From a virus: DNA of 30,962 nt. Shown one piece after another: positions 9,772 through 30,962 of the stretch. Below the pieces are notes generated by a model. It worked only from the letters and a program-made list of their open reading frames with translations, was not told the DNA's origin and did no database searches. The translations under genes were made by a program, and so were the position numbers. Where the stretch lies: positions 1 to 30,962 of the IMG/VR virus record IMGVR_UViG_3300026097_000070, one strand, 5' to 3'. Numbering within the stretch: position 1 is the stretch's first letter; every line of letters begins with the position of its first letter.

Positions 9772-9774
9772 TGG

Positions 9775-10170: not shown

Positions 10171-10176
10171 AAGTTA

Positions 10177-10185: not shown

Positions 10186-10187
10186 TC

Positions 10188-12413: not shown

Positions 12414-12419
12414 AATCTT

Positions 12420-12425: not shown

Positions 12426-12440
12426 CCTTACTTCTTAGTA

Positions 12441-14558: not shown

Positions 14559-15466
14559 TATGCCCCCACCGTAATTGTATCAGTCCCAGCAGTAAATGTC
14601 GTAATCTTATATCCATTACTAGTAGTTGTTGAGCTTGTTAGGCCAGCACCAATAGTTAATGAGTAGGTTTCTGGGTATTTAAGAATTACAACACCAGAGC
14701 CACCGGCAAAACCAGCACCACCACCATTTGTGTTTTTCCCGTCACCACCCTTACCGACATTTGCCGAAGATGAGCCAGTTCCGGTAGCATTCCAATATCC
14801 GGCACCACCTCTTCCATATTCGACGGGGGAGCCTATAATTGTCGAAGTAATGCCAGCTCCGCCAAGAGGAGCGGTTCCATCATCTGTTCTATCGGCATCT
14901 TGACCAGCTGCACCAGCGCCACCACCAGGCGCACCGGAATAACTTGAATAAGATAAGTTACTACCACCAGGAAAACCTTGCATATTTTCACCAGATCCTC
15001 CAGAAGCCAATGATGATGTGCTCCAAGAAGAGGCTCCACCACCAGACCCACCACTATTTCCATTAGCCCCAGCTCCGGAAGAACCAGTATCACCTCCGCC
15101 GCCACCGCCGCCGATGCAAACATAATCGCCAAAAACTGTGTTGCCACCATTAGAGCCGTTACCAGTAACGACTCCTCCTTCAGCACCACCAGCTCCAATA
15201 GTAATTGAATAGGTTTCACCACCAGAAAGCGTTATTGGTTGAAATGCCTTTGCTCCACCACCAGACATTTCTCCAGAAACAGCAGAAAGATATCCGCCAG
15301 CACCCCCACCGCCACCGGCGCCGCCACCGCCTCCAGCAACAGCAATCCATTGTAGATCGTCTGTGAGAAGATCTTTTACTATCTTCCAAACACCAGCAAC
15401 ACTATTCCAAACAAAGCCTTCGTAGTAATCTCCGTCGCTGGGAGAATCGGGAAAATCTAAAGCCAT
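14558..15466 (-). CDS. Glycine-rich adhesin paralogue 6 with module D start
   Basis: 302 residues. Begins ALDFPDSPSDGDYYEGFVWN with GVWKIVKD (module D), then DLQWIAVAGGGGGAGGGGGA, the GGYLSAVSGEMSGGG segment that parallels GYRSNVSGE of paralogues 2 and 3, glycine runs, ITSTIIGSPVEYGRGGAG and SGVVILKYPETYSLTIGAG with a tail like that of paralogue 3. It therefore combines the start of paralogues 4-5 with the core subtype and tail of 2-3, a clear mosaic. The start overlaps the XkdW-like gene stop (TAATG). Confidence 0.72.
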   Translation of the reverse strand: MALDFPDSPSDGDYYEGFVWNSVAGVWKIVKDLLTDDLQWIAVAGGGGGAGGGGGAGGYLSAVSGEMSGGGAKAFQPITLSGGETYSITIGAGGAEGGVVTGNGSNGGNTVFGDYVCIGGGGGGGDTGSSGAGANGNSGGSGGGASSWSTSSLASGGSGENMQGFPGGSNLSYSSYSGAPGGGAGAAGQDADRTDDGTAPLGGAGITSTIIGSPVEYGRGGAGYWNATGTGSSSANVGKGGDGKNTNGGGAGFAGGSGVVILKYPETYSLTIGAGLTSSTTTSNGYKITTFTAGTDTITVGA

Positions 15467-21951: not shown

Positions 21952-22158
21952 ATGAAAGATAATGGCGATGTAGAATTTATGGATCTATTTGATCCTAGAC
22001 AGCCTAGATCAGATAAAGACGTTGTTGAATCAAGATTAGCTATTTGTAATGAATGCCCTTGGCTTGATAAAAGATTAGTTAAATGCCGTAAGTGTGGTTG
22101 TTTTATGAAATTAAAATCTACACTTGGATCTGCTAAATGTCCTATAGGTAAATGGTGA
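21952..22158 (+). CDS. Small six-Cys zinc-binding protein
   Basis: 68 residues, with Cys at 32, 35, 45, 48, 50 and 63 in CNECPWLDKRLVKCRKCGCF...AKCPIGKW. This is a compact zinc-ribbon pattern seen in small proteins of many T4-like and environmental phages (DUF6171-like); their role is unknown, but a nucleic-acid or protein adaptor is usual for such folds. The N-terminal 25 residues are acidic and Asp-rich. It is the first plus-strand gene of the right arm and overlaps the next ATG (TGATG). No ribosome site is present and the extended -10 suggests leaderless translation. Confidence 0.8.
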   Translation: MKDNGDVEFMDLFDPRQPRSDKDVVESRLAICNECPWLDKRLVKCRKCGCFMKLKSTLGSAKCPIGKW

Positions 22159-22250
22159 TGACAAGAGATTTAGATTCCCTCGAAAATAATTACGATATAT
22201 GGGATGATGTTTGGCTCATTAAGGAAGAAGAAGATGAAAGATCATCATGA
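22158..22250 (+). CDS. Very small acidic ORF
   Basis: 30 residues (MTRDLDSLENNYDIWDDVWL then an acidic tail). The ATG overlaps the TGA of the zinc protein and its own end overlaps the HTH gene by 17 bases, the packing style of real genes in this arm. Composition is strongly acidic with two Trp. I do not recognise it. It might simply serve as a translational bridge between the two neighbours. Confidence 0.45.
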   Translation: MTRDLDSLENNYDIWDDVWLIKEEEDERSS

Positions 22251-22392
22251 CAAAGATTACCTTCAGGATAAGATCAATGAAGGAAAAACTTCTAAAGATA
22301 TAGCTAATGAGCTGCGTGTTTCTTATAAACTTGTCGAATTATACCTCAAAAAGTTCGATATACCCTTCGAATCACAGCAAAACACCCTTTAG
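22234..22392 (+). CDS. Small helix-turn-helix DNA-binding protein
   Basis: 52 residues from the ATG at 22234; an in-frame ATG 10 codons earlier exists, but AAGGAAG sits well before 22234. Residues 18-40 (KTSKDIANELRVSYKLVELYLKKF) match the helix-turn-helix found in small phage regulators and in homing-endonuclease DNA-recognition tails. No other domain fits in the length. As the only recognisable DNA-binding regulator in the window it is a candidate for controlling the promoters of the right arm, though nothing ties it directly to the repeated boxes. Followed by an AT-rich convergent region. Confidence 0.7.
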   Translation: MKDHHDKDYLQDKINEGKTSKDIANELRVSYKLVELYLKKFDIPFESQQNTL

Positions 22393-22393
22393 G

Positions 22394-22422
22394 GTAACAT
22401 AACGTTATCAAAATGTTATAAT
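22394..22422 (+). promoter_or_regulatory. Strong extended -10 promoter without downstream gene
   Basis: GTAACA (22394-22399), 17-base spacer ending TG-T, and TATAAT (22417-22422). The -35 area contains the palindrome ATAACGTTAT (22399-22408). No open frame follows before the convergent terminators. Confidence 0.5.
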
Positions 22423-22605
22423 ATATACCCTTTCTCGATCTGAAAAAATTTTTAGATCCAAAATGACAAAAATCTGAATATTTTATTAGTGTGTATGATA
22501 CACGATCACAGATAAAAAGTCAAACTAGGTTAGTGCGCACACCGATACGACTTTACAAAAAAATACCCGTACGGGTTTATAGAAAAATACTGGCACGCCC
22601 TAAAC

Positions 22606-22644
22606 AAAAACTACCCCTAGGCGGTAGGTGGCACCTAGGGGTAG
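22606..22644 (-). terminator. Intrinsic terminator of minus-strand island
   Basis: Read on the minus strand: CTACCCCTAGG, 12-base loop, CCTAGGGGTAG, then TTTTTG. An 11-bp perfect stem plus T-run, 18 bases after the stop of the 57-residue gene. A second weaker one (ACCCGTACGGGT plus T7, 22564-22575) follows. Confidence 0.85.
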
Positions 22645-22661
22645 GGGGTGGTGCTTAGTCC

Positions 22662-22835
22662 CTAAGCGGGGACCAAGTCTGACCAAACAGCGTCTAACTT
22701 GAAGACGATAGAGTAGTAGCCTTCGCCACTACCGATTCGGCTAAGCATTTCATCTGCCTCAGCCATAGTGCTGAAGGTGTCAGACTCCATGATAACCTCA
22801 GAGGTTTGACGGTTGAATACTTTTACTTGATACAT
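22662..22835 (-). CDS. Small minus-strand protein (57 aa)
   Basis: 57 residues: MYQVKVFNRQTSEVIMESDT, FSTMAEADEMLSRIGSGEGY and YSIVFKLDAVWSDLVPA. The short alpha/beta plan, starting with a strand, a turn with ExxDTFSTMAEAD, a helix and another strand, is like many small phage proteins of unknown role. It is the second gene of a two-gene island opposite to its surroundings, with its own TGTCAGTGGT promoter upstream and a strong terminator directly after. The ribosome site is weak (AGAAAG with A-rich spacer). I do not recognise a family. Confidence 0.72.
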   Translation of the reverse strand: MYQVKVFNRQTSEVIMESDTFSTMAEADEMLSRIGSGEGYYSIVFKLDAVWSDLVPA

Positions 22836-22868
22836 TTTTTTCTACTTTCTTTTTTCTTACTTACTTAT

Positions 22869-22897
22869 ACAATACCATTGACCACTGACATTGACTA
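22869..22897 (-). promoter_or_regulatory. Boxed promoter P2 (minus strand)
   Basis: Minus strand: TAGTCA, one base, TGTCAGTGGT (22890-22881), CAATGG, TATTGT (22874-22869). The only boxed promoter on the minus strand; it lies directly after the stop of the 44-residue gene and serves the 57-residue gene. Confidence 0.65.
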
Positions 22898-23029
22898 ACC
22901 GATAACGGTAGCCAACTCAGGATATTCAGCGTATTCATACGCACAAACGAGAGAACCTTCGTCCTCTACAGCAGGAACATAGTTACCGCAAGTTTCGCAG
23001 TAACCCATATCTAATAGTTCGTTATACAT
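22895..23029 (-). CDS. Small CxxC protein (44 aa)
   Basis: 44 residues: MYNELLDMGYCETCGNYVPA followed by an acidic segment with one more Cys (SLVCAYEYAEYPELATVIG). The CETC knuckle suggests a half zinc-ribbon; a metal site would need a partner or dimer. An excellent ribosome site (AAAGGAG, eight-base spacing) supports it. First gene of the minus island. Promoter: TTGACT and TATTGT at 17-base spacing, without the TGTCRGTGGT box. Confidence 0.72.
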   Translation of the reverse strand: MYNELLDMGYCETCGNYVPAVEDEGSLVCAYEYAEYPELATVIG

Positions 23030-23069
23030 TGGTATAACTCCTTTCTTTTATCTAATCTTTATACTACTA

Positions 23070-23098
23070 ACAATAGTACCTATACCCCGAAAAGTCAA
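23070..23098 (-). promoter_or_regulatory. Box-less promoter of minus-strand island
   Basis: TTGACT (23098-23093), 17-base spacer, TATTGT (23075-23070) on the minus strand. Its -35 is near consensus, unlike most boxed promoters. Confidence 0.55.
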
Positions 23099-23107
23099 GC
23101 CCGCTCT

Positions 23108-23117
23108 CGGCGTGTCG
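23108..23117 (+). repeat. CGGCGTGTCG box
   Basis: Copy between the divergent units; its orientation is inverted with respect to the adjacent minus-strand promoter. Confidence 0.6.
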
Positions 23118-23163
23118 CAAAAATAATTCTATTTCCCAGGTAACTCACAGGTGGGGCCGGTCC

Positions 23164-23193
23164 AGGCCGGCCCTGTTAGCAAGTTGTGGATAA
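23164..23193. repeat. GGCCGGCC boundary and DnaA-type box
   Basis: AGGCCGGCCC (23164-23173), preceded by a diverged copy (GGGGCCGG at 23153-23160), then TTGTGGATAA at 23184-23193, whose complement TTATCCACAA contains the perfect DnaA box. Confidence 0.6.
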
Positions 23194-23211
23194 CTATTTT
23201 TGGTGTACACG

Positions 23212-23250
23212 GCGTGTCGCCTTGCATTTGTCGGTGGTGGCTGGTACTGT
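23212..23250 (+). promoter_or_regulatory. Boxed promoter P1 with CGGCGTGTCG
   Basis: CGGCGTGTCG just upstream, TTGCAT (23222-23227), T, TGTCGGTGGT (23229-23238), GGCTGG, TACTGT (23245-23250). Drives the 44-residue gene at 23280. Confidence 0.7.
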
Positions 23251-23279
23251 ATAGGTATAGATAGAAAGTAGGTAGTAAA

Positions 23280-23414
23280 ATGAAAATCAAAGTAACACTA
23301 AACAGTGGAAACGAAAAGTTTCTATTCTTCAGCGAGTTTGCTCGCAAGTCAGTAATGGCTAAGTATAACCAACTCGTTTCTGAAGGCGAAATCCAAGCCT
23401 TCGAGTTGGTATAG
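23280..23414 (+). CDS. Small protein with KYxQLVSEG motif (44 aa)
   Basis: 44 residues: MKIKVTLNSGNEKFLFFSEF, then ARKSVMAKYNQLVSEGEIQA and FELV. A beta strand, a helix and a final strand are likely. The KYNQLVSEGEIQAF block is nearly repeated in the 58-residue protein at 23916 (KYRQLVSEGTIVEF), so these are paralogues. Leader AGAAAGTAGGTAGTAAA is also shared with 23916; AAAGTAGGT is one base from the ideal ribosome site. Function not recognised. Its last codons carry the -35 region of promoter P3. Confidence 0.75.
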   Translation: MKIKVTLNSGNEKFLFFSEFARKSVMAKYNQLVSEGEIQAFELV

Positions 23415-23436
23415 TGTCAGTGGTAACTGATAGTCT
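23408..23436 (+). promoter_or_regulatory. Boxed promoter P3
   Basis: GGTATA (overlapping the previous stop), G, TGTCAGTGGT (23415-23424), AACTGA, TAGTCT (23431-23436). The box starts on the first base after the stop codon. Drives the 45- and 48-residue genes. Confidence 0.7.
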
Positions 23437-23462
23437 TAGAATAACAAGAAAGGAAAACTAAA

Positions 23463-23600
23463 ATGATTGCTTATCCACTATCGATAGACAAAGTCTATGC
23501 TGACTGTGTTAGTTGTGACGCTGTTCACATTGTAGACAAGTATGTGACTTATCACTTTTGTAATCACTGCCGTTCTTCACTCCGTAAGCGAGGTGCGTAA
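23463..23600 (+). CDS. Small zinc-ribbon-like protein (45 aa)
   Basis: 45 residues with Cys15, Cys18, Cys33 and Cys36 (CVSC and CNHC), a classic four-Cys zinc ribbon, and a basic end (SSLRKRGA). Likely binds one zinc; nucleic-acid or protein contact is typical for such folds but the target is unknown. The leader AAGAAAGGAAAACTAAA, also used at 24249 and 24630, provides AAAGGA. The stop overlaps the next ATG (TAATG). Confidence 0.75.
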   Translation: MIAYPLSIDKVYADCVSCDAVHIVDKYVTYHFCNHCRSSLRKRGA

Positions 23601-23746
23601 TGGGCTGGCTGTCTGTAAGCGTGTTGCTGATGGGTGTGGCTATGTCGTTCCACGATACCCTGTGGGTTTGGGCTGGTCTGTTCTTCCTGGCGTGGGTAGG
23701 TCTGTCTGCCATAGAGATGCGGTTGCGACCAGACAAGTGGAACTAA
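23600..23746 (+). CDS. Small membrane protein (48 aa)
   Basis: 48 residues, almost entirely hydrophobic: LSVSVLLMGVAMSF and then LWVWAGLFFLAWVGLSAI, two likely short transmembrane segments, ending in a charged EMRLRPDKWN tail. It overlaps the zinc-ribbon stop and is thus co-translated. No lysis, exclusion or superinfection family is recognisable; a small membrane protein expressed among accessory genes may alter the host envelope, but that is speculation. Confidence 0.68.
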   Translation: MGWLSVSVLLMGVAMSFHDTLWVWAGLFFLAWVGLSAIEMRLRPDKWN

Positions 23747-23747
23747 T

Positions 23748-23788
23748 CGGCGTGTCTACTTGACATCGATCGAAAGTTGGGGCCGGCT
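23748..23788 (+). repeat. CGGCGTGTC-CTTGACA and GGGGCCGGCT boundary
   Basis: Following the stop: ATCGGCGTGTCTACTTGACA, then GGGGCCGGCT (23779-23788), an imperfect copy of the GGCCGGCC palindrome. No -10 fits the TTGACA here. Confidence 0.5.
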
Positions 23789-23839
23789 CGACTGTATCTA
23801 CCCTACAAAAAACACACCCAAACTTTGTGCTCTAGGTAG

Positions 23840-23868
23840 TTGAAATCTGGAGAATAGTGTGAGATGAT
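23840..23868 (+). promoter_or_regulatory. Box-less promoter for 58-residue gene
   Basis: TTGAAA (23840-23845), 17-base spacer ending GTGTGA, GATGAT (23863-23868). The following TAGTTATATAAAG is identical to the start of the P4 transcript, which helps fix the -10. The TGTCRGTGGT box is absent. Confidence 0.45.
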
Positions 23869-23915
23869 TAGTTATATAAAGATAAAGAATAGAAAATATA
23901 GAAAGTAGGTACAAA

Positions 23916-24092
23916 ATGTACAAAGTAATCGAATTCAAATCAAATGGTTCAGTAAAGACTACTGGCTTGTTCAAGAATGAGACTATGGTCTCGGTTCTTC
24001 CTAAGTACCGTCAATTGGTATCAGAAGGTACCATTGTAGAATTCATCGTAGTTGATGAAGATGGTAAGCCTTACCTAAACGGTTCTTACTAA
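23916..24092 (+). CDS. Small protein with KYRQLVSEG motif (58 aa)
   Basis: 58 residues, mostly beta: MYKVIEFKSNGSVKTTGLFK, NETMVSVLPKYRQLVSEGTI and VEFIVVDEDGKPYLNGSY. It looks like an extended paralogue of the 44-residue protein at 23280, sharing the QLVSEG block and the AGAAAGTAGGTA leader. No catalytic or metal site is visible. Together the two suggest duplication of a small accessory gene together with its leader. Function unknown. Confidence 0.75.
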   Translation: MYKVIEFKSNGSVKTTGLFKNETMVSVLPKYRQLVSEGTIVEFIVVDEDGKPYLNGSY

Positions 24093-24093
24093 T

Positions 24094-24157
24094 CGGAGTG
24101 TCGGCTTGACAATCCGACAACTTTGGCCGGCCCGCCTGTGGATAACTTTGTGGATAA
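24094..24157. repeat. Boundary element with two DnaA-type boxes
   Basis: CGGAGTGTCGGCTTGACA after the stop, GGCCGGCC at 24125-24132, then TGTGGATAA at 24137-24145 and again at 24149-24157 (12-base spacing), each the exact complement of the DnaA box TTATCCACA. A degenerate third unit (TGTGGAAAC) follows. Confidence 0.6.
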
Positions 24158-24183
24158 GATGTGGAAACTATTTTTACGATCCT

Positions 24184-24224
24184 CGGCGTGTCGGTTTGGT
24201 AATGTCGGTGGTATAGGCTATGCT
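24184..24224 (+). promoter_or_regulatory. Boxed promoter P4 with CGGCGTGTCG
   Basis: CGGCGTGTCG (24184-24193), TTGGTA (24196-24201), A, TGTCGGTGGT (24203-24212), ATAGGC, TATGCT (24219-24224). Drives the 53-residue gene. Confidence 0.7.
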
Positions 24225-24248
24225 TAGTTATATAAAGAAAGGAAAACT

Positions 24249-24410
24249 ATGACTAGACACTATTTCTCAGACTGGCTAGATGAAGACTGCCTGCGTTGTG
24301 AAGAATGCGGAATGAATGCCCTCGGCAAACACTCCACCTGTGAAGAATACACAGCCTACAACCAAGAGCGTAATCGTCAGTTGCGTGAGCGTTTGGTAAC
24401 AAAACCATAA
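24249..24410 (+). CDS. Small Cys-containing protein (53 aa)
   Basis: 53 residues: MTRHYFSDWLDEDCLRCEEC, then GMNALGKHSTCEEYTAYNQE and a basic Arg-rich helix (RNRQLRERLVTKP). Cys at 14, 17, 20 and 31 with a His nearby could bind zinc. The KHSTCEEYTAYNQERxRxLR end resembles other small phage zinc proteins, but I cannot name the family. AAAGGA ribosome site in the shared GAAAGGAAAACTATG leader. Confidence 0.74.
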   Translation: MTRHYFSDWLDEDCLRCEECGMNALGKHSTCEEYTAYNQERNRQLRERLVTKP

Positions 24411-24414
24411 CGCT

Positions 24415-24455
24415 CGGCGTGTCGCCTTGACACGCTTCCCCCAATAGACTAATGT
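24415..24455 (+). promoter_or_regulatory. Box-less promoter P5 with CGGCGTGTCG
   Basis: CGGCGTGTCG (24415-24424), TTGACA (24427-24432), 17-base spacer, TAATGT (24450-24455). CGTGTC and GACACG form a 6-bp dyad overlapping the -35. No TGTCRGTGGT, but a perfect -35. Confidence 0.6.
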
Positions 24456-24481
24456 TAGTACTAACAAGAAAGGTGGCGACT

Positions 24482-24601
24482 ATGGCCAATATCAAACACT
24501 ATACCCCCTGCGGAACCTGTGGGCAGACTTGGGCAACTGCTCACCTAGTCTATGTCGGCGGTGCTGACCTTCACTGCCGTACCTGTGTCAGTGGTCGCTG
24601 A
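24482..24601 (+). CDS. Small zinc-ribbon protein (39 aa) ending in a promoter
   Basis: 39 residues with CGTC and CRTC (Cys10, 13, 32, 35): a minimal four-Cys zinc ribbon (YTPCGTCGQTWATAHLVYVG). AAAGGTGG upstream serves as ribosome site. The last codons, encoding CVSGR-stop, are the box of promoter P6 (TGTCAGTGGT within TGT-GTC-AGT-GGT), so the end of this protein is constrained by, or derived from, a promoter element. Function unknown; a nucleic-acid contact is typical of such ribbons. Confidence 0.72.
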   Translation: MANIKHYTPCGTCGQTWATAHLVYVGGADLHCRTCVSGR

Positions 24602-24607
24602 TACACT
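24579..24607 (+). promoter_or_regulatory. Boxed promoter P6 (inside gene end)
   Basis: GTACCT, G, TGTCAGTGGT (24586-24595), CGCTGA, TACACT (24602-24607). The box lies within the last codons of the 39-residue gene; the TG of the extended -10 is part of its TGA. Confidence 0.65.
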
Positions 24608-24629
24608 AAAACCAAACGAAAGGAAAACT

Positions 24630-24818
24630 ATGTCATACCAATATAATCCAGATGTCACCGAACTCCGTCAGGCTTGGGAAGTAGCCTACGGCGAAATGGG
24701 AGTCTATCTGCTCTCGGGTGCTATGTTCGTCAATATAGACGACGGCACTAAAGAAAGACTCTACAAGCAAGCACTAGACAAAGTGCGTGAAGACCTAGAA
24801 GAAAAGGGGCTTGTCTAA
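24630..24818 (+). CDS. Small hypothetical protein (62 aa)
   Basis: 62 residues from the ATG at 24630 with AAAGGA in the shared leader; the frame stays open upstream but that part overlaps the previous gene and promoter. Sequence: two helices (DVTELRQAWEVAYGEMGVYL and ERLYKQALDKVREDLEEKGL) around a short GAMFVNIDDGTK turn. No metal or catalytic motif. The stop overlaps the next ATG (TAATG). Unknown function. Confidence 0.72.
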   Translation: MSYQYNPDVTELRQAWEVAYGEMGVYLLSGAMFVNIDDGTKERLYKQALDKVREDLEEKGLV

Positions 24819-25063
24819 TGATGACTCGCAAAGACTATGTGAAGGTCGCTCAGATTCTCTCAGAGTACCGTCAGAGTATTCCCGCTGAGGACTATCACGA
24901 TTTGGTGATGGACTTTGGCAAGATGATGAAACTGGATAACGATAGGTTTGACTTGTCCCGCTTCATGATTGCCTGTGGCATTGACATGAAGGCACTGGTG
25001 ACTCATGCCATGAGCACTTTGCCCAAGCCCAAGCCCGCTAGCGAGCATGTTAGCCTAGCATAA
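24818..25063 (+). CDS. Small helical protein (81 aa)
   Basis: 81 residues; the start may be either of two adjacent ATGs. Helical throughout: YVKVAQILSEYRQSIPAEDY, LVMDFGKMMKLDNDRFDLSR and a FMIACGIDMKALVTHA helix, ending in a Pro/Lys tail (LPKPKPASEHVSLA). The plan resembles small phage proteins in which a residue stretch around NxRFDxxRFxxACG is conserved in many actinophages; their role is unknown. Co-translated with the 62-residue gene. A UUCG hairpin follows its stop. Confidence 0.72.
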   Translation: MMTRKDYVKVAQILSEYRQSIPAEDYHDLVMDFGKMMKLDNDRFDLSRFMIACGIDMKALVTHAMSTLPKPKPASEHVSLA

Positions 25064-25064
25064 A

Positions 25065-25086
25065 CGTATGCCCTTCGGGGCATATG
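25065..25086 (+). terminator. UUCG-capped hairpin plus GGCCGGCC
   Basis: CGTATGCCC-TTCG-GGGCATATG forms a 9-bp stem (one G-U pair) capped by the very stable UUCG tetraloop, right after the stop. GGGGCCGGCCC follows at 25086-25096. No long T-run, so it may protect the 3' end of the mRNA rather than terminate alone. Confidence 0.6.
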
Positions 25087-25174
25087 GGGCCGGCCCAGCC
25101 GCTTTTCCAGTTAGATCATTTACGAAGCAATTTATGAAGATCGCAGAAAAAATCGCAGAAAGTTTTCCAGTTTA

Positions 25175-25215
25175 CGGCGTGTCGGTTTTGCTATGTCAGT
25201 GGTCTGTGTTAGTGT
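25175..25215 (+). promoter_or_regulatory. Boxed promoter P7 with CGGCGTGTCG, leaderless
   Basis: CGGCGTGTCG (25175-25184), TTTGCT, A, TGTCAGTGGT (25194-25203), CTGTGT, TAGTGT (25210-25215), six bases, ATG at 25222. The predicted start is the A of ATG. Confidence 0.7.
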
Positions 25216-25221
25216 TTAGTT

Positions 25222-25443
25222 ATGAACACATTAGATGAAAACCCAACCCAAGTATTTTGCTCGCAGTGTGACTTTGTCACCCCTAACTTTATTGAGTGGG
25301 CAGGTGAGTTCTACTGCGAGGAGGAGTGCGTAGCCTACCTCCCCACCGAAGCCTCTATGGAGGAGCAGGACTTCGGCAACCCCGATGCCGATTGGCTTGC
25401 CTCTGCTGGCTGGGGTGACGACGAGGACTACGGAGCCTGGTAG
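25222..25443 (+). CDS. Acidic zinc-finger-like protein (73 aa)
   Basis: 73 residues. Cys13/Cys16 (CSQC) and Cys32/Cys36 (FYCEEECVAYL) make a likely zinc site, like a TRASH/FCS-type finger that contacts proteins. The C-terminal half is strongly acidic with two Trp-Gly motifs (DADWLASAGWGDDEDYGAW), reminiscent of DNA mimics or acidic interaction tails. Translation is almost certainly leaderless: no ribosome site and a -10 ending six bases before the ATG. Unknown function. Confidence 0.75.
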   Translation: MNTLDENPTQVFCSQCDFVTPNFIEWAGEFYCEEECVAYLPTEASMEEQDFGNPDADWLASAGWGDDEDYGAW

Positions 25444-25444
25444 G

Positions 25445-25473
25445 GGGCCGGCCGCGTTATAAAACCGTTATAA
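25445..25473. repeat. GGCCGGCC boundary and tandem CGTTATAA
   Basis: GGCCGGCC at 25446-25453, immediately followed by CGTTATAAAA (25455-25464) and CGTTATAA (25466-25473) as an 11-base tandem. An inverted CGGCGTGTCG (as CGACACGCCG) comes about ten bases later. Confidence 0.6.
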
Positions 25474-25501
25474 TTAATTTTACGACACGCCGCAGATCGA
25501 T

Positions 25502-25530
25502 TTGCGGGTGTCAGTGGTCAGTGATAGGTT
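25502..25530 (+). promoter_or_regulatory. Boxed promoter P8, leaderless
   Basis: TTGCGG, G, TGTCAGTGGT (25509-25518), CAGTGA, TAGGTT (25525-25530), six bases, ATG at 25537. Confidence 0.7.
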
Positions 25531-25536
25531 GTAGTT

Positions 25537-25692
25537 ATGAAGCACAAAGGTAACGAGAACAAGCCTTATATCGAGGCTATGCGTGAGATTAGAAAGTCTA
25601 ACAAGGCTGGCACTCACGCTGACAAGCGTACCAAGCGTGCTCGCACAAGACAATCAAGCAAGTACAAAGCAATCAAAGATGGAGAAGAATAA
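25537..25692 (+). CDS. Small very basic protein (51 aa)
   Basis: 51 residues with about a third Lys/Arg: MKHKGNENKPYIEAMREIRK, then SNKAGTHADKRTKRARTRQS and an SKYKAIKDGEE end. Such composition suggests binding to DNA or RNA, or a role in condensing nucleic acid; no family is recognised. Leaderless start as for 25222. It opens a four-gene overlapping operon (25537-26448) with stop-start overlaps at 25692, 25967 and 26116. Confidence 0.72.
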   Translation: MKHKGNENKPYIEAMREIRKSNKAGTHADKRTKRARTRQSSKYKAIKDGEE

Positions 25693-25967
25693 TGGGAGCA
25701 ATGAGGGCAATGGATATTGCTGACAACTTCGACCTTGAGGAAGGTATTAAGATACACCTTAGAACAAACCACTACCCTGCCGTACCTATCGAGATGGTTC
25801 CAACGTGCCTTGAGGCTATTGACGCTGTGAACACCGAAAGCGACTGGGAAAAGTTGATTACGTTACCTCATGGAGTATCGTACAAAGGCTTGACACAAGC
25901 CCCCGCCAGTGCTATTATTGAGCAACACCACCTTGAGTTCTGGATTATCGAAAGCGAGTTGTACTAA
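25692..25967 (+). CDS. Conserved small phage protein (91 aa)
   Basis: 91 residues. The core IKIHLRTNHYPAVPIEMVPT, LEAIDAVNTESDWEKLITLP and APASAIIEQHHLEFWI is a pattern I associate with small proteins conserved among actinophages, with a helical body and an invariant NHYPxVP turn; no activity is known. No membrane or metal motif. TAATG overlaps on both sides place it in the same operon as the basic protein. Function unknown; a virion role is unlikely given its place among accessory genes. Confidence 0.72.
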   Translation: MGAMRAMDIADNFDLEEGIKIHLRTNHYPAVPIEMVPTCLEAIDAVNTESDWEKLITLPHGVSYKGLTQAPASAIIEQHHLEFWIIESELY

Positions 25968-26119
25968 TGACTGACACTTACCTTATCGACAAATGGTATA
26001 TACAATATGCTGATGGTACTTTAGTACCTTGCCAAAATAAGGCAACAGCAGAGTATCTCGTAAATATCGGTGACGCAGAGCGTATCGTAGATGTCACTAG
26101 AGAACTGATGAAGAAATGA
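25967..26119 (+). CDS. Small hypothetical protein (50 aa)
   Basis: 50 residues: MTDTYLIDKWYIQYADGTLV, then PCQNKATAEYLVNIGDAERI and VDVTRELMKK. A short beta hairpin followed by helices; one Cys. It is read through overlapping start and stop codons (TAATG at its start, ATGA at its end), which is the main support. The pattern of a strand plus KATAEYLVxIGDAERIVDV resembles small phage proteins with unknown role. Confidence 0.68.
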   Translation: MTDTYLIDKWYIQYADGTLVPCQNKATAEYLVNIGDAERIVDVTRELMKK

Positions 26120-26448
26120 AAGACGGAACCTATGTCGTCAGGCTAGATGACGAAGGGCTCCCAATGCTCGCTAATCAAATAAATATGTCTGATGGGTATT
26201 GGGTATCTGATGACACTGGTGTATCCGTTCACGGAGAACTGGAGTCTAACGCTGTACTAGATGCCCTTAGCCTAATGGATATCAAAGATGGGGAGATTGT
26301 TGGTGTCTGGCAGAATAAAGAAGTGTCGTATATAGACAGGTCTTATCACTTTAGAAATAAAAACACCGCCCTAAAAGCAGGGGAAGCGTTTCAGCAGATT
26401 GCTATCTGGGATTGCGCCAACTCCAAGGCTCTCGACATTCGCTATTAG
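26116..26448 (+). CDS. Hypothetical protein (110 aa)
   Basis: 110 residues, mixed alpha/beta: GTYVVRLDDEGLPMLANQIN, a DGYWVSDDTGVSVHGELESN segment, DGEIVGVWQNKEVSYIDRSY and a terminal helix (NTALKAGEAFQQIAIWDCAN). No recognised domain, metal site or membrane segment. Last gene of the 25537 operon. The EIVGVW...DRSYHF region might be a small beta-barrel. Unknown function. Confidence 0.7.
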   Translation: MKDGTYVVRLDDEGLPMLANQINMSDGYWVSDDTGVSVHGELESNAVLDALSLMDIKDGEIVGVWQNKEVSYIDRSYHFRNKNTALKAGEAFQQIAIWDCANSKALDIRY

Positions 26449-26457
26449 CGGGTGATC

Positions 26458-26511
26458 GGGGCCGGCCCCCGAAACCGTTACCAAGCCGTTACCAAAAATA
26501 TCCCATATGGG
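26458..26511. repeat. GGCCGGCC boundary, tandem CCGTTACCAA, palindrome
   Basis: GGGGCCGGCCCCC (26458-26470), then CCGTTACCAA twice in tandem with 11-base spacing, then CCCATATGGG just before the -35 of promoter P9. Confidence 0.6.
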
Positions 26512-26512
26512 C

Positions 26513-26541
26513 TTGACAATGTCGGTGGTGGCTGTCATACT
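26513..26541 (+). promoter_or_regulatory. Boxed promoter P9
   Basis: TTGACA (26513-26518), A, TGTCGGTGGT (26520-26529), GGCTGT, CATACT (26536-26541): the only copy with both a perfect -35 and the box. The leader holds a GGTGGC/GCCACC hairpin before CCCCTAACAG and the ribosome site. Confidence 0.72.
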
Positions 26542-26601
26542 TAGTATATCAACAAAACAACGGTGGCTGGCTCGCCACCCCTAACAGTAAGGAAGCAAAC
26601 T

Positions 26602-26748
26602 ATGAACACTCCCACTATTGGAGAAGCATACACCACCGCTCAGTCTGGCGTTACTGGCGTTGTCCAGGAAATCGTCAAGAACGCTAGCGGTTCGTTCCGC
26701 GTTCGCCTTGATGTGAACGGTCAAGAGCGTTGGACTACCGTAAAGTAG
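26602..26748 (+). CDS. Small beta-barrel-like protein (48 aa)
   Basis: 48 residues: MNTPTIGEAYTTAQSGVTGV, then VQEIVKNASGSFRVRLDVNG and QERWTTVK. The pattern of GVTGVVQEIVxxxSGxxRVRLDVNGQERWT is like a small five-strand barrel (SH3 or KOW-like). AAGGAAG precedes the ATG at 26602; a longer frame upstream covers the leader hairpin and is unlikely to be used. Stands alone between a boxed promoter and a 14-bp terminator-like hairpin, so it is a single-gene transcription unit with a structured leader. Unknown function. Confidence 0.72.
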   Translation: MNTPTIGEAYTTAQSGVTGVVQEIVKNASGSFRVRLDVNGQERWTTVK

Positions 26749-26756
26749 TCTAACCT

Positions 26757-26796
26757 GTGTGGGGGGAGAGCCACCTACTTTCCTCTCTCCCCACAC
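26757..26796 (+). terminator. 14-bp hairpin after 48-residue gene
   Basis: GTGTGGGGGGAGAG (26757-26770) pairs with CTCTCTCCCCACAC (26783-26796), one G-U pair, 12-base loop. No T-run follows, and promoter P10 begins two bases later. This unit lacks the GGCCGGCC palindrome, so the hairpin may replace it. Confidence 0.6.
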
Positions 26797-26797
26797 C

Positions 26798-26826
26798 ACC
26801 TCTATGTCGGTGGTCAATGATATAGT
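26798..26826 (+). promoter_or_regulatory. Boxed promoter P10
   Basis: ACCTCT, A, TGTCGGTGGT (26805-26814), CAATGA, TATAGT (26821-26826). The expected transcript begins near GTAAGCAAATCCCC (26833-26846), a start block shared with P12. Confidence 0.68.
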
Positions 26827-26867
26827 TATGAAGTAAGCAAATCCCCCTATTGAGAGAGAGAATAATA

Positions 26868-27332
26868 ATGGCAAGAAGCATTTCCGTAAAGGTTCCTACC
26901 TCGTTGCTCATTCAGCAGATTGAGGAGCGTATTGCTCAGATTGACAAAGATATTGAGGAATACCCCGTCAAGCGTGAGGCATTTGACAAGGCAGAGGAAG
27001 CATACAAGGCAGAGGTGGCAAACTTTATTGCTGCTTATCTTGGAGAAAACCTCGACAAGATTGGCTTTGACTATGAGGACATCATTCGTATCAACACAGG
27101 CTTTGGTGTCTATCGTGGACAGAGCAAGGTAGAGGTTTCCTTTGATACTGACGCAATCGTTGGTTTCCCTAAGCGACCAGAAGCACCAGAGAAGCCCAAT
27201 CAGCGTGAGTCGTTTGGTCGCGAATACTCTACCCGCAAGGAGTTGCTGGAGAAAAATCTCCGTATCCTGAAGATGACATCACAGGAAGAGGTCAATGCCT
27301 CTACCTATGGTGCGATTATGGAAATCCTCTAG
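26868..27332 (+). CDS. Hypothetical coiled-coil protein (154 aa)
   Basis: 154 residues from ATG 26868. A long helical segment near 14-50 (IQQIEERIAQIDKDIEEYPV ... AFDKAEEAYKAEV) suggests a coiled coil, followed by an alpha/beta part (YLGENLDKIGFDYEDIIRIN, GFGVYRGQSKVEVSFDTDAI) and a second helical end (TRKELLEKNLRILKMTSQEE). No catalytic motif. An in-frame TTG six codons earlier exists but GAGAGAGAG fits ATG 26868 better. Single-gene unit. Function unknown. Confidence 0.72.
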   Translation: MARSISVKVPTSLLIQQIEERIAQIDKDIEEYPVKREAFDKAEEAYKAEVANFIAAYLGENLDKIGFDYEDIIRINTGFGVYRGQSKVEVSFDTDAIVGFPKRPEAPEKPNQRESFGREYSTRKELLEKNLRILKMTSQEEVNASTYGAIMEIL

Positions 27333-27356
27333 GGACAGGAAGCACCTGGGTATGTG

Positions 27357-27473
27357 TCTAAACTGCCCTATTCCCTGGGAAATGGCGAGCCTGGGTGACG
27401 ATTGGAGCCCCACCTGGGTAGAAGGTATAGTGGATAAACTGCCCCCTCGCGGGGGATCGTTGGGCCGGCCCAA
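27357..27473. repeat. TCTAAACTGCC repeat, CCCCC hairpin and GGCCGGCC
   Basis: TCTAAACTGCC (27357-27367), a partial copy ATAAACTGCC (27434-27443), a CCCCC-tcgc-GGGGG hairpin (27442-27455) and TTGGGCCGGCCCAA (27460-27473) followed by ATATTTTT. The last part could act as a short intrinsic terminator. The rest of the 229-base gap holds no supported gene. Confidence 0.6.
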
Positions 27474-27489
27474 ATATTTTTACTCTTAT

Positions 27490-27531
27490 CGGCGTGTCGA
27501 TTAGGTCTATGTCAGTGGTTGCTGTTACGAT
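27490..27531 (+). promoter_or_regulatory. Boxed promoter P11 with CGGCGTGTCG
   Basis: CGGCGTGTCG (27490-27499), AGGTCT, A, TGTCAGTGGT (27510-27519), TGCTGT, TACGAT (27526-27531). The leader carries ACCCCCTAGAGAAAG before the ATG at 27562. Confidence 0.68.
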
Positions 27532-27561
27532 GTATATATACCCCCTAGAGAAAGAACAGTT

Positions 27562-28080
27562 ATGAACCTAGTACAGACATTTCAGACTTATGTCGAAGAC
27601 GCTACCCCTGGCCAAATCGAAGAAGCGGCTAAGTGGTATTTCGAAGCAGAGAAAGTAGCACACAAGGTGGCAGAGAATCTTGACGCTAGCCTAGAGGTTG
27701 GTGCCAGTGTTGTCTCAGCCTTTTCTCCTCGTGAGCGATGGACAAGCAATGTCACGAAAGCAATCCATTTTTCATTGGGCAAGCCAGTTACTGGATTAAG
27801 TAACAATCTCAAAATGGCACAGGCAAGCCTTACCCTAGGCTATGAAGCATTAAGAGGACCTAAGACAAATGCCTTTGCTAGGGCAATCGCAGGTGACGAG
27901 AACGCCGTAGTGGTGGATGTCTGGATGATGAGAGCAGGTGGATTCGGTATTGACAGCCCAAACAAAACACAGTATACTGATGTGACGAACGCAATCAAAA
28001 CAGTGGCCGACAAGAATGGCCTTACCCCTAGAACAACGCAAGCACTAATCTGGATTATGGTTAGAGGAAGTGGAGAGTAG
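27562..28080 (+). CDS. Possible HhH-glycosylase-like phage protein (172 aa)
   Basis: 172 residues. Similar proteins occur in many actinophages (DUF7178-like). Pattern: SAFSPRERWTSNVTKAIHFS near 52-72, LRGPKTNAFARAIAGDENAV near 97-117, VVDVWMMRAGGFG near 117-130, and LTPRTTQALIWI at the end. The order Lys-Thr-x-x-Phe ... Val-x-Val-Asp-x-Trp-Met-x-Arg recalls the helix-hairpin-helix GPD DNA glycosylases, in which G-K-T and a later D-x-x-x-x-R are conserved; the match is suggestive only. If right it would act on DNA bases, perhaps protecting modified phage DNA. First of three overlapping or adjacent genes. Confidence 0.65.
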   Translation: MNLVQTFQTYVEDATPGQIEEAAKWYFEAEKVAHKVAENLDASLEVGASVVSAFSPRERWTSNVTKAIHFSLGKPVTGLSNNLKMAQASLTLGYEALRGPKTNAFARAIAGDENAVVVDVWMMRAGGFGIDSPNKTQYTDVTNAIKTVADKNGLTPRTTQALIWIMVRGSGE

Positions 28081-28081
28081 A

Positions 28082-28327
28082 ATGCCTAAGTATACAGTTA
28101 CAGGTAGTTATAAAGAATACTACGAGCTTACAATTGAGGCACCCGATGAGGACACAGCTGTGCAAATATTTTATCAGAAGGGTGGCGGTGAATCGAGCCT
28201 GGATGGCGACTGGGACGATATCGATGTGGATTTTGTGTCTTGGCATGACCCCGACACACACGAAGAGCCCACGGCCGATTACACAGAAGAAGACTATGAC
28301 CCCGACGGAGGTAAAATCAGATGGTAA
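28082..28327 (+). CDS. Acidic small protein (81 aa)
   Basis: 81 residues from ATG 28082, one base after the previous stop, with GGAG before it. Starts with a beta strand and helix (KYTVTGSYKEYYELTIEAPD, EDTAVQIFYQKGGG), a plan common to small phage proteins, then a very acidic tail (GDWDDIDVDFVSWHDPDTHE and EEDYDPDGGKIRW). The acidic tail with Trp resembles the 73-residue protein at 25222. The stop overlaps the next gene by seven bases. Unknown function. Confidence 0.72.
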   Translation: MPKYTVTGSYKEYYELTIEAPDEDTAVQIFYQKGGGESSLDGDWDDIDVDFVSWHDPDTHEEPTADYTEEDYDPDGGKIRW

Positions 28328-28503
28328 AGAAAAAATTGAAAGAGTATGAAGTGCTTGAAGTACGTGGCTTTATTGTACATGCATTCAGTGAAAAACATGC
28401 ATTAGATAAATTCAATCGCTATGACTATGTCTCTGAGGGAGACGTGTGGCCAGAAGTCCGCGAGCTAGGCCCCGTCAACATGAGCGGGACAGCTCCGGGA
28501 TAG
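28321..28503 (+). CDS. Small protein (60 aa)
   Basis: 60 residues: MVKKKLKEYEVLEVRGFIVH, AFSEKHALDKFNRYDYVSEG and DVWPEVRELGPVNMSGTAPG. A strand-helix-strand plan with FIVHAFSEKHALDKF, the same sort of fold as the gene before it. Overlap of the start with the upstream stop suggests coupling. The C-terminal GPVNMSGTAPG is loop-like. Unknown function. Confidence 0.7.
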   Translation: MVKKKLKEYEVLEVRGFIVHAFSEKHALDKFNRYDYVSEGDVWPEVRELGPVNMSGTAPG

Positions 28504-28538
28504 GTTTCTCTGGGGGGAGAAAAGACCTGGGCATGTCA

Positions 28539-28576
28539 TCTAAACTGCCTGATCCCCAGATTTCTGGGCCGGCCCC
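28539..28576. repeat. TCTAAACTGCC repeat and GGCCGGCC boundary
   Basis: TCTAAACTGCC (28539-28549) preceded by CTGGGCATGTCA, then a TCTGGGG/CCCCAGA pairing across the element and GGGCCGGCCCC (28566-28576). Confidence 0.6.
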
Positions 28577-28630
28577 GCCGCCCACCATATAACAAAACTA
28601 TAACTTAGTTTACGAAGAACCTAAATAAAC

Positions 28631-28659
28631 TTGTGCATGTCAGTGGTTAGGTGTATGAT
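28631..28659 (+). promoter_or_regulatory. Boxed promoter P12
   Basis: TTGTGC, A, TGTCAGTGGT (28638-28647), TAGGTG, TATGAT (28654-28659). Transcript expected to begin near GTAAACAAATCCCC (28667-28680). Confidence 0.68.
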
Positions 28660-28696
28660 TACTAATGTAAACAAATCCCCTAACGAAAGGTGTCTC

Positions 28697-29704
28697 ATGG
28701 CACACGAATTAGAATCAGACAAATCATTCGCTTCATTCCGTACCCCCGCTTGGCATGGTCTGGGCACCGTCTTTGAAGAAGAAGTTAGCACTAAAGAAAT
28801 GCTTGAGCTGGCTAATCTTCACGATTGGAATGTACACTTGGAAGAAGTTGCCATTCCAGATGGTTTCACCTCCGACAAGACATACAACTATGTCACTCGC
28901 ACGAACCCCTTTGACCGTAAGCAAAAAGACATTCTCGGTGTTGTGGGTGAGCGCTACCGCATTCTCCAGAATGAGGAGCTGTTCGACTTTGGTGACGCAC
29001 TGCTAGATGGTGGTGGTCGTTGGGAGACTGCTGGCTCTATCAAGGGTGGGCGTCAGGTCTTTGGCTCTCTTGCTCTTGAGCGTGAGACTGTGCTCGACCC
29101 CTCTGGCGTATCTGATAAGGTAAACTCTTATCTTCTGGTAAACACATCACATGATGGCTCTATCGCAATTCAGGCTAGCGTTACGCCTGTGCGTGTTGTC
29201 TGCGCTAACACTCTAAACCTTGCTCTTGGTTCTGGTGTTGGTCGTAACCGTAGTGTCAAGCAGTCTTACAAGATTCGACACACCCAAACCGCTAGTGGTA
29301 AAATCCAGGCAGCTCGTGAGGCTCTTGGCTTGGCTAATGTCTACATGGATGAGTTTGACAAGCTTGCTCAGGAGATGATTCAGCAGACTATCTCCAATGA
29401 CAAGTTCCAAGACATCATTCGCATGGCTTACCCCATGCCAGAGGCAGACAAGAAGGGTGCTCTCTCTAAGTGGAACACCAAGCTTGAGCTTCTTGAGGAT
29501 ATCTATCAGGGTGAGTTCAATAACACTATCGCTGGTACCGCTTGGGGTGCTCTCAACGCTTTGACTGAGCGCATTGACTGGCACCGTATTGGGCGCAAGG
29601 GTTCAGACGAGGCTGTACTGTCTGGAGCTAGTGGCTTCGACCCTATGGTGAACGCTGAGAAGAATCGTCTTCTCCAGGTTGTTCGTCAGGCTGTCTCAGC
29701 CTAA
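28697..29704 (+). CDS. DUF932 / TIGR03299 phage-plasmid-like protein
   Basis: 335 residues from ATG 28697 with GAAAGG before it. Typical family plan: N-terminal FRTPAWHGLGTVFEEEVSTK, ILGVVGERYRILQNEELFDF near 80, the DALLDGGGRWETAGSIKGGR segment near 105, LLVNTSHDGSIAIQASVTPV near 145 with VRVVCANTLNLALG after it, and a helical C-terminal part. Such proteins occur in many phages and plasmids of actinobacteria; their biochemical role is not established, though a link to recombination or replication has been suggested from context in some genomes. Length is normal. A single-gene unit. Confidence 0.88.
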   Translation: MAHELESDKSFASFRTPAWHGLGTVFEEEVSTKEMLELANLHDWNVHLEEVAIPDGFTSDKTYNYVTRTNPFDRKQKDILGVVGERYRILQNEELFDFGDALLDGGGRWETAGSIKGGRQVFGSLALERETVLDPSGVSDKVNSYLLVNTSHDGSIAIQASVTPVRVVCANTLNLALGSGVGRNRSVKQSYKIRHTQTASGKIQAAREALGLANVYMDEFDKLAQEMIQQTISNDKFQDIIRMAYPMPEADKKGALSKWNTKLELLEDIYQGEFNNTIAGTAWGALNALTERIDWHRIGRKGSDEAVLSGASGFDPMVNAEKNRLLQVVRQAVSA

Positions 29705-29725
29705 CCCCTTAGTCCTAGGCATGAC

Positions 29726-29757
29726 TCTAAACTGCCTCCCCATTTTGGGGCCGGCCC
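29726..29757. repeat. TCTAAACTGCC repeat and GGCCGGCC boundary
   Basis: GGCATGAC-TCTAAACTGCC (29726-29736), a CCCCATTTTGGGG hairpin (29738-29750) and GGGGCCGGCCC (29747-29757) partly sharing its G-run. This is the tidiest example of the boundary. Confidence 0.6.
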
Positions 29758-29837
29758 AGATCTCCCCAAACAATAATAGTATATAAACTCATTTACGATG
29801 CATTAAGAAGAGATCCTAGAAATCGCAGGAATTTCTA

Positions 29838-29866
29838 TTGACCGTGTCAGTGGTTGGTTGTATAGT
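29838..29866 (+). promoter_or_regulatory. Boxed promoter P13, leaderless
   Basis: TTGACC, G, TGTCAGTGGT (29845-29854), TGGTTG, TATAGT (29861-29866), six bases, ATG at 29873. Confidence 0.7.
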
Positions 29867-29872
29867 GGTGGT

Positions 29873-30046
29873 ATGGAGAAACACGAAGTAGTAAATGAGA
29901 TTCTAGAATATCTAGATACCCGTCGCACACAGCTATCCAATGAGATGTCTGCTGTTGCTTATGAAAGCAATGACTACGCAATGCTTGACGCAATGTATGA
30001 AGTATATGACCACCTTATCGCTAAGTTGGAGGATGACTTTAGATGA
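29873..30046 (+). CDS. Small acidic helical protein (57 aa)
   Basis: 57 residues from ATG 29873: MEKHEVVNEILEYLDTRRTQ, LSNEMSAVAYESNDYAMLDA and MYEVYDHLIAKLEDDFR. Two amphipathic helices, probably a helical hairpin or dimer. An in-frame ATG five codons upstream lies inside the -10 region and cannot be used by this promoter. Leaderless start, as for 25222 and 25537. It opens a seven-gene overlapping run to the end of the window. Unknown function. Confidence 0.74.
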   Translation: MEKHEVVNEILEYLDTRRTQLSNEMSAVAYESNDYAMLDAMYEVYDHLIAKLEDDFR

Positions 30047-30159
30047 TACAAACAATCAAGGTAGACCATGTCTGCCGTTGGTGTGCCCTCGAAAAAGAAT
30101 TCTATCTTCTAGATAGGATATGCGAAGACTGTTGGGAAAGGATGCACAATGCAAACTGA
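30043..30159 (+). CDS. Small zinc-ribbon protein (38 aa)
   Basis: 38 residues with CRWC (11, 14) and CEDC (27, 30): MIQTIKVDHVCRWCALEKEF then YLLDRICEDCWERMHNAN. A minimal four-Cys zinc ribbon, similar in spacing to those at 23463 and 24482. Overlaps the previous stop (ATGA) and the next gene by 11 bases. Unknown target. Confidence 0.7.
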   Translation: MIQTIKVDHVCRWCALEKEFYLLDRICEDCWERMHNAN

Positions 30160-30283
30160 ACAAGCTGAACAACGAGAAGTCTATATTGAAGTCTTGGGTG
30201 GAGTTGCCCATATCATTTCTGCCCCACACGATGTAGATGTTTATATTATTGACTTAGACGAGGAGAAGGAAAGTGCCAGGTAG
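30149..30283 (+). CDS. Small protein (44 aa)
   Basis: 44 residues: MQTEQAEQREVYIEVLGGVA, then HIISAPHDVDVYIIDLDEEK and ESAR. The VYIEVLGGVAHIISAPxDVDVYIIDLD core is a short three-strand unit that I have seen as a repeated plan in small phage proteins (EVxGGVAxVxxxPxxVxVxIxDxD); no activity is known. Start and stop overlap neighbours, supporting it as coding. Encodes the ribosome site of the next GTG gene in its last codons (AGGAGAAGG). Confidence 0.7.
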   Translation: MQTEQAEQREVYIEVLGGVAHIISAPHDVDVYIIDLDEEKESAR

Positions 30284-30437
30284 AGAATCAGAATACATGC
30301 GTGGCTATCTCCGTGGGGTATCTGCCTTGATGGGGCTTATCAGTTCTGGTAAGGTCAAAAGACTTGACAAAACCAATGTATTACAGTATGCTAGAGAACT
30401 AGTCGAAGCCCAAAAAGATAGGGAAGATTCATTATGA
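30273..30437 (+). CDS. Small helical protein with GTG start (54 aa)
   Basis: 54 residues starting at GTG 30273: AGGAG lies seven bases upstream and the frame then reads PGRESEYMRGYLRGVSALMG, LISSGKVKRLDKTNVLQYAR and ELVEAQKDREDSL. A later ATG (codon 9) is possible but lacks a ribosome site. Helical; the YMRGYLRGVSAL segment resembles the YDAGYQDGLIKAI segment of the last gene in the window, hinting at similar small helical folds. Unknown function. Confidence 0.66.
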   Translation: MPGRESEYMRGYLRGVSALMGLISSGKVKRLDKTNVLQYARELVEAQKDREDSL

Positions 30438-30697
30438 CTGCCCCCCTAATATCGTGGAAAGAATGGGAAGATACATACAAGCCCATTAATGATACTATGT
30501 TTGATTTCTATGATGAAGCAGAGGAACACTCTTCATCCCCCTATCACCTATGGACTGTTGTAGATAATAATCCTAACAGTGTTTACTTAGATGTTCTTCC
30601 TGGTCGCAGGTTGTTTAATAGGATAGGTTTCTATGTTACCGAAATTCCTTGGGAGGATACAGATATGGTGGTGAGCAATGACAAACAATATTCCTAG
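30434..30697 (+). CDS. Hypothetical protein (87 aa)
   Basis: 87 residues, acidic: SWKEWEDTYKPINDTMFDFY, DEAEEHSSSPYHLWTVVDNN, VYLDVLPGRRLFNRIGFYVT and EIPWEDTDMVVSN. The order WxxWxxxYxPIxN...YHLWTVVDxxxNxVYLxxGRRxxNRIGYxVTxxPW is a plan found in small conserved phage proteins; role unknown. ATGA overlap with the previous stop. Confidence 0.7.
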   Translation: MTAPLISWKEWEDTYKPINDTMFDFYDEAEEHSSSPYHLWTVVDNNPNSVYLDVLPGRRLFNRIGFYVTEIPWEDTDMVVSNDKQYS

Positions 30698-30752
30698 AGA
30701 AGACAACGAGATGTTCGAAGATATGGTTTGGGAGGAGTGGGACAATGAGTAA
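30678..30752 (+). CDS. Very small acidic ORF (24 aa)
   Basis: 24 residues: MTNNIPREDNEMFEDMVWEE then WDNE. It bridges the 87-residue gene and the last gene by overlaps of 20 and 8 bases. Like the 30-residue ORF at 22158 it is acidic with Trp; it may be a real micro-protein or only a coupling device. Confidence 0.42.
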   Translation: MTNNIPREDNEMFEDMVWEEWDNE

Positions 30753-30962
30753 TGAGACTATCTTTGAGCGGCAAGAAAAGATTGACTATGAGTGGCAAGA
30801 TGGTGATGATGCAGAAATATATGATGCTGGTTATCAAGATGGTTTAATTAAAGCAATAACTATCTTAGATTCCGTGCGGCAACAACCAGAAGTAGATAGG
30901 CTACCATCAAGCTTTACTGTGTCAGTGGTCATTGCTACACTTAGAAAGGTAGCAGAAGGAGA
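30745..30962 (+). CDS. Small protein, partial at right edge
   Basis: 72 codons to the window end without a stop: MSNETIFERQEKIDYEWQDG, DDAEIYDAGYQDGLIKAITI and LDSVRQQPEVDRLPSSFTVS, then VVIATLRKVAEG. Acidic N-terminal half, helical after that. Its TVSVV codons contain promoter P14, so the box is again within a coding sequence. Unknown function. Confidence 0.62.
   Translation, partial: MSNETIFERQEKIDYEWQDGDDAEIYDAGYQDGLIKAITILDSVRQQPEVDRLPSSFTVSVVIATLRKVAEG
30913..30941 (+). promoter_or_regulatory. Boxed promoter P14 (inside coding sequence)
   Basis: TTTACT, G, TGTCAGTGGT (30920-30929), CATTGC, TACACT (30936-30941), within the last gene of the window. GAAAGG follows, as in other leaders, so a further gene probably starts just outside. 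Confidence 0.5.

Follow-up and report, generated by a model that had tools for sequence, protein, structure and literature searches.

An array of probable PafBC-type promoters may connect accessory genes of an uncultured actinophage to the host DNA-damage sensor

Introduction

Phages are known to place genes under the SOS repressor LexA of their host, as in the case of tum of coliphage 186, and cluster K mycobacteriophages, such as TM4, carry start-associated sequences in many copies before small phage genes. The locus described here is the IMG/VR virus record IMGVR_UViG_3300026097_000070, a linear record of 30,962 bp that is probably a fragment and that was analysed in its entirety (hereafter the window); its right arm contains 13 copies of a promoter element, TGTCRGTGGT-N6-TANNNT, which we propose to be read by the DNA-damage activator PafBC of the host. 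With the start-associated sequences of TM4 the element shares its many copies before small genes, but its sequence and position differ, and the TM4 genome holds no site of the window's motif. Like LexA control of the tum type, the proposed control would tie phage genes to the DNA-damage response of the host; LexA systems, however, act by repression, whereas PafBC would act by activation.

The LexA-independent DNA-damage response of actinobacteria acts through the RecA-NDp/P1 promoter, which is activated by host PafBC and for which the consensus tTGTCRgtg-8nt-TannnT has been published (PMC5656591). PafBC is a heterodimer of WYL proteins that is activated by single-stranded DNA bound to its WYL domains (PMC11804915). 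It inserts between the promoter DNA and domain 4 of sigma-A, with PafB contacting the -26 motif, and thereby replaces the contact that sigma4 makes with the -35 region, for which RNA polymerase with sigma-A must already occupy the promoter (PMC11804915). The SiwR-dependent promoter of M. smegmatis is likewise served by a WYL activator via the -26 region; its conserved word, however, is a GGA triplet found at one operon, and its motif differs from that of the window (PMC10693628).

Base for base, and also in its spacing, the window motif TGTCRGTG-N8-TANNNT equals the RecA-NDp/P1 promoter: the TGTCRGTG word is present at all 13 sites, and the gap of eight nucleotides (nt) to TANNNT is exact at 12 of them. 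The mycobacterial RecA-NDp/P1 promoters (recA etc.) share with the window the word, the 8-nt spacing, TANNNT and a dispensable -35, and differ in that they serve host repair genes, whereas the 13 copies in the window serve phage genes within one arm. The insertion of PafBC at -26 and the pre-seated RNA polymerase would account for poor conservation being limited to the -35. We regard it as highly probable that the 13 sites are PafBC-type promoters read by host PafBC, an arrangement that would wire the accessory genes of the phage to the DNA-damage sensor of its host.

Results

Thirteen sites in the right arm

The original prediction, made from the letters of the window, announced 14 promoters but listed 13, which is also the number that exists. 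All of them hold the motif at a fixed spacing, 12 in the exact form and one, at 26520, with CATACT at the identical distance. A Markov model leads to an expectation of 0.008 exact TGTCRGTG-N8-TANNNT sites for the right arm (22001-30962), where 12 are observed, while a motif search over the whole window bore out that the left arm has none. When up to two mismatches are allowed, 1.5 matches are expected by chance; three left-arm matches with two mismatches were set aside because they look accidental, being situated in GGTGGTGG-rich sequence. The prediction also described the six bases before the -10 as usually NNNTGN, and indeed 10 of the 13 sites have a TG at the extended -10 position; at 28638 and 29845 the TG directly abuts the -10, and 24203 has no TG. 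The predicted start lies seven bases past the -10 and is mostly an A.

All sites except one are on the plus strand. The exception (22869..22890; TGTCAGTGGT-CAATGG-TATTGT) has its predicted +1 at 22862 and would drive a gene of 57 amino acids (aa) at 22662-22835. The first plus-strand site (23229..23250; predicted +1 at 23257) precedes a 44-aa gene (23280-23414), directly after whose stop begins the next one (23415..23436), which is assigned to a 45-aa gene (23463-23600). The site at 24203..24224 is followed by a 53-aa gene (24249-24410), and that at 24586..24607, which overlaps the end of the preceding gene, by a 62-aa and an 81-aa gene (24630-24818 and 24818-25063). At 25194..25215 and 25509..25530 the putative promoters serve leaderless genes of 73 aa (25222-25443) and 51 aa (25537-25692), the latter followed by genes up to 26448. 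The CATACT site (26520..26541), which has a full TTGACA -35, would drive a 48-aa gene (26602-26748), and the sites at 26805..26826 and 27510..27531 a 154-aa gene (26868-27332) and a 172-aa DUF7178 gene (27562-28080), respectively. A DUF932/TIGR03299 gene (335 aa from 28697, ending at 29704) lies downstream of 28638..28659, a leaderless 57-aa gene starting at 29873 and then a run of small genes downstream of 29845..29866, and the last site (30920..30941) is at the contig end, so that its gene falls outside the record. The short leader that had been described before the small genes is found at most sites (about 16-54 nt, mostly bearing an AAAGGA-like Shine-Dalgarno sequence), but not at 25194, 25509 and 29845, where the ATG coincides exactly with the predicted +1.

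Conservation and anatomy of the promoters in related viruses

To obtain relatives independently of the motif, 80 viral loci were retrieved with the DUF932 protein of the window as similarity query. In these loci canonical N8 sites numbered 229 on the gene strand and one on the opposite strand, against 0 and 1 for the reversed word. N8 is the dominant spacing; N6, N7, N9, N11 and N12 are empty, and peaks at N3, N13 and N14 were taken as probable by-products, produced by a TA replacing the TG of the extended -10 or by an additional TANNNT close to the start. No canonical site was present in 80 portal-gene loci (695 kb). The densest whole records carry 22-24 sites (G027, G029) and 23 sites (G066) on one strand, and six records of 85-111 kb have their array on one strand only, inside a block of about 6-13 kb.

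Counted from the first T of TGTC, an ATG stands at a distance of exactly 28 nt in 60 of the 542 unique canonical sites of all viral loci, whereas the other offsets from 26 to 31 account for 0-7 each, and the same +28 offset recurs in 29 of 346 sites of a variant element described below. At this position 87% of canonical and 79% of variant sites in the DUF932 loci have an A. With the -10 at positions 16-21, position 28 corresponds to +1, and the initiator A together with the ATG spike supports it as the probable start; the leaderless genes with their ATG at +28 would thus by themselves pin down where transcription begins.

As had been predicted, the -35 is poorly conserved and at most sites too poor for strong unaided transcription; of 538 related sites, about a fifth have TTG at the standard -35 position. 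That fraction, and the many sites with TGN before the -10, could point to common sigma-A promoters of the extended -10 type, in which the spacer word merely aids RNA polymerase and PafBC plays no part. We find this very unlikely, as conservation of the word greatly exceeds that of TGN or the -35, its spacing is fixed at N8, and host DNA-repair genes share the word whereas phage structural genes do not. Still less credence is given to the suggestion that the element is an operator through which a phage or host repressor silences all accessory units together, which was one of the two readings originally offered. Repressors classically sit between -35 and -10, where the fixed 10-bp word is found, but the word is asymmetric, is locked to the -10 and +1, and is identical to a known activator element, and the -35 of most sites is too weak to support strong transcription unaided; no repressor candidate was found.

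The host side

Named bacterial genomes were scanned with the window's motif, a search in which many matches are due to chance. In a freshwater Candidatus Planktophila metagenome-assembled genome (GC 46%), TGTCAGTGGTACCTGCTACTTT lies upstream of recA, and the same genome encodes adjacent PafB-like (WYL, WCX) and PafC (HTH_PafC, WYL) proteins. The Planktophila family, represented by 101 genomes, has 248 occurrences of the canonical pattern and 81 of the reversed control (Wilcoxon p ~3e-13), and recA, recR, radA and dnaN are among the genes recognised by eye downstream of these sites. In 397 Actinomycetota genomes the pattern was found 173 times versus 19 in the control, and PafC is present in 26 of 28 Actinomycetota genomes.

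WhiB, which among the control genomes was detected only in Corynebacterium, is encoded by 30 of 47 virus records, and the hosts are therefore taken to be actinobacteria. The related virus records contain a distinct WhiB-like family (KEWGVWGG) whose C-terminal tail is conserved (L291-L302). A host search by DUF932 in bacterial genomes gave no match, and one by the phage WhiB was dropped because this protein looked too divergent to indicate the host.

Candidate regulators encoded by the phages

Arrays of a single motif before many phage genes usually imply a phage regulator, and the original prediction accordingly considered an activator site that replaces the -35, to be checked by looking for a phage DNA-binding protein that tracks with the motif. 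A sigma-70-like factor and WhiB are among the products of known Planktophila phages (PMC10202952), and the frequency of WhiB in the virus records could likewise be seen as favouring a phage-encoded activator or alternative sigma factor that recognises TGTCRGTGGT, replaces the -35 and works independently of host PafBC. However, the WYL family was found in none of 46 virus records, the window included, although these records may be fragments; the same search was positive in 7 of 14 known genomes. As far as seen, the virus has no PafBC of its own, and it would therefore be the PafBC of the host that reads the sites. In a comparison of three phages rich in the canonical element (type 1) with three rich in the variant (type 2), no evident DNA-binding regulator gene separates the two, proteins of less than 50 aa being missed, so that the tracking protein did not turn up. 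The genes exclusive to either type appear to be of the tail and lysis type, with a few enzyme genes, and this small comparison agrees with a switch of host rather than of phage regulator. WhiB occurs in both phage types and hence does not explain the two elements. Since host repair genes use the same element at the same spacing, a phage-encoded regulator seems unlikely to us. The activator-site proposal holds in its mechanism, the word being the -26 element used by a known class of activators, but the activator itself is most probably host PafBC and not a phage protein.

A second -26 code

Where relatives have few canonical words, they carry TGTCWGAS, chiefly as TGTCAGACCC or TGTCTGACCC, with the same spacing and start signals, at 249 sites in the DUF932 loci. 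Across 27 records the canonical and the variant type anticorrelate (rho -0.70, p 4e-5). In the 397 Actinomycetota genomes TGTCWGACCC-N6-TANNNT occurs 136 times, compared with 10 in the control, and the genes seen by eye downstream of these host sites include radA, sbcD, ligA, dnaN and SSB-like, RmuC-like and dGTPase genes; at radA and sbcD the gene often starts at or near +28. Some Actinomycetota genomes have only type-2 sites, some only canonical ones and some both, with PafC in all three groups. It seems plausible from these sequences that PafBC also reads the second code. The helix-turn-helix of PafB differs between the code groups (TK and AFxRMFERDK versus TFExIR and SAKRMFERDK; L602-L626), which is a possible basis of the code change; the difference is suggestive and is confounded by shared ancestry.

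In the Planktophila family the type-2 element shows no clear excess, and several matches are copies of one repeated intergenic element of about 60 nt. This repeat, which contains TGTCAGACC...TANNNT and is not evidently a promoter, is present in several Nanopelagicaceae chromosomes, occurring four times in one 4-kb stretch (L487 2544, 3396, 4887, 6502) and also in L489-L491.

Taken as a whole, we consider it somewhat probable that many uncultured actinophages tie accessory blocks of 8-24 promoters to host PafBC in place of a regulator of their own, and that related phages follow their hosts by changing between two -26 codes (TGTCRGTGG and TGTCWGASS) that match the repair-gene codes of different actinobacterial lineages, which would reveal a second, undescribed PafBC-type code.

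Cultured phages

A sample of 19 cultured actinophages, with hosts among Streptomyces, Rhodococcus, Gordonia, Microbacterium, Arthrobacter and Mycobacterium, and of two proteobacterial phages gave 0-2 canonical sites per phage. Equal frequency of the motif in unrelated phages, which the original prediction had named as counting against it, is thus not what was observed. The variant element is present at 0-1 sites in the 18 actinophages and two proteobacterial phages in which it was sought. We found no paper linking PafBC with phage promoters in the open-licence literature, and relative to the literature searched the use of host PafBC promoters by phages would be new.

Other features of the window

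Copies of GGCGTGTCG are located at 23109, 23211, 24185, 24416, 25176 and 27491 on the plus strand, four of these directly upstream of promoters, and at 25491 on the minus strand. The window and its relatives together have 142 copies, of which 29 precede the TGTC word by 18 or 19 nt; this suggests a second conserved upstream element. Eight GGCCGGCC boxes (23165, 24125, 25088, 25446, 26460, 27463, 28567 and 29749), seven of which are 47-106 nt upstream of the next promoter, compare with an expectation of 0.19 in the window and with none in 1.1 Mb of DUF932 relatives; they are possibly cassette borders or terminators. The actinobacterial SOS box GAACN4GTTC is absent from the window and shows no excess in the relatives (31 versus 30 in the control).

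On the minus strand, positions 6803-15466 form a tandemly repeated structural module, in which smaller open reading frames alternate with five proteins that match phrog_2295 and are each about 300 aa long; the one tested has a glycine-rich domain. An open reading frame of 1191 aa at 3192-6767, also on the minus strand, has no Pfam or PHROGs match. The nearest proteins to the portal and DUF932 proteins of the window are from Streptomyces phages (48-53%). Relatives at the DNA level were not found in the annotated phage collection, where a BLAST search with the consensus promoter returned only chance matches.

Discussion

What we infer is the action of PafBC on the phage sites, its timing, infection as the source of the single-stranded DNA signal, and an accessory or host-takeover role of the block. 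Single-stranded DNA would build up in the infected cell from phage replication forks, from degradation of the host DNA or from outside damage; PafBC bound to it would join RNA polymerase-sigma-A already seated at the phage promoters, and the whole block of small accessory genes would then fire alongside the host repair genes.

Several points weigh against this proposal. The action of PafBC on the phage sites rests on the comparison of sequences; the host-side evidence comes from Planktophila and other Actinomycetota, to which the host of the window is presumed to belong; and, the window being a fragment, a phage regulator of this virus could sit outside the record. About a fifth of the related sites keep a -35 TTG, and some of them may fire without PafBC. 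It should also be noted that the cultured soil actinophages sampled have no such arrays although actinobacterial hosts commonly have PafBC, so that the strategy is not universal.

In addition to promoting transcription, or in place of it, the many copies may work as a sponge and deprive the few repair promoters of the host of RNA polymerase and PafBC. Compared with about 2.5 sites per Planktophila-family genome, the denser phage records hold 12-24, to be multiplied by the phage copy number. The sites, however, are built as working promoters with the gene start at or shortly past +1, which a sponge would not need, and we consider this role improbable.

If the reading of the sites by host PafBC is true, the host DNA-damage sensor would be the master switch of these phages for many genes, with the virus's own replication as the likely trigger. 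This would offer a model, open to experiment, of the way in which abundant aquatic phages schedule gene expression with no regulator dedicated to it, and the promoter code would predict the type of host. The second code is relevant to whether a PafBC response exists in Streptomyces and elsewhere among actinobacteria, given that the mycobacterial PafBC motif has been reported as seemingly not conserved in S. venezuelae (PMC9380542).

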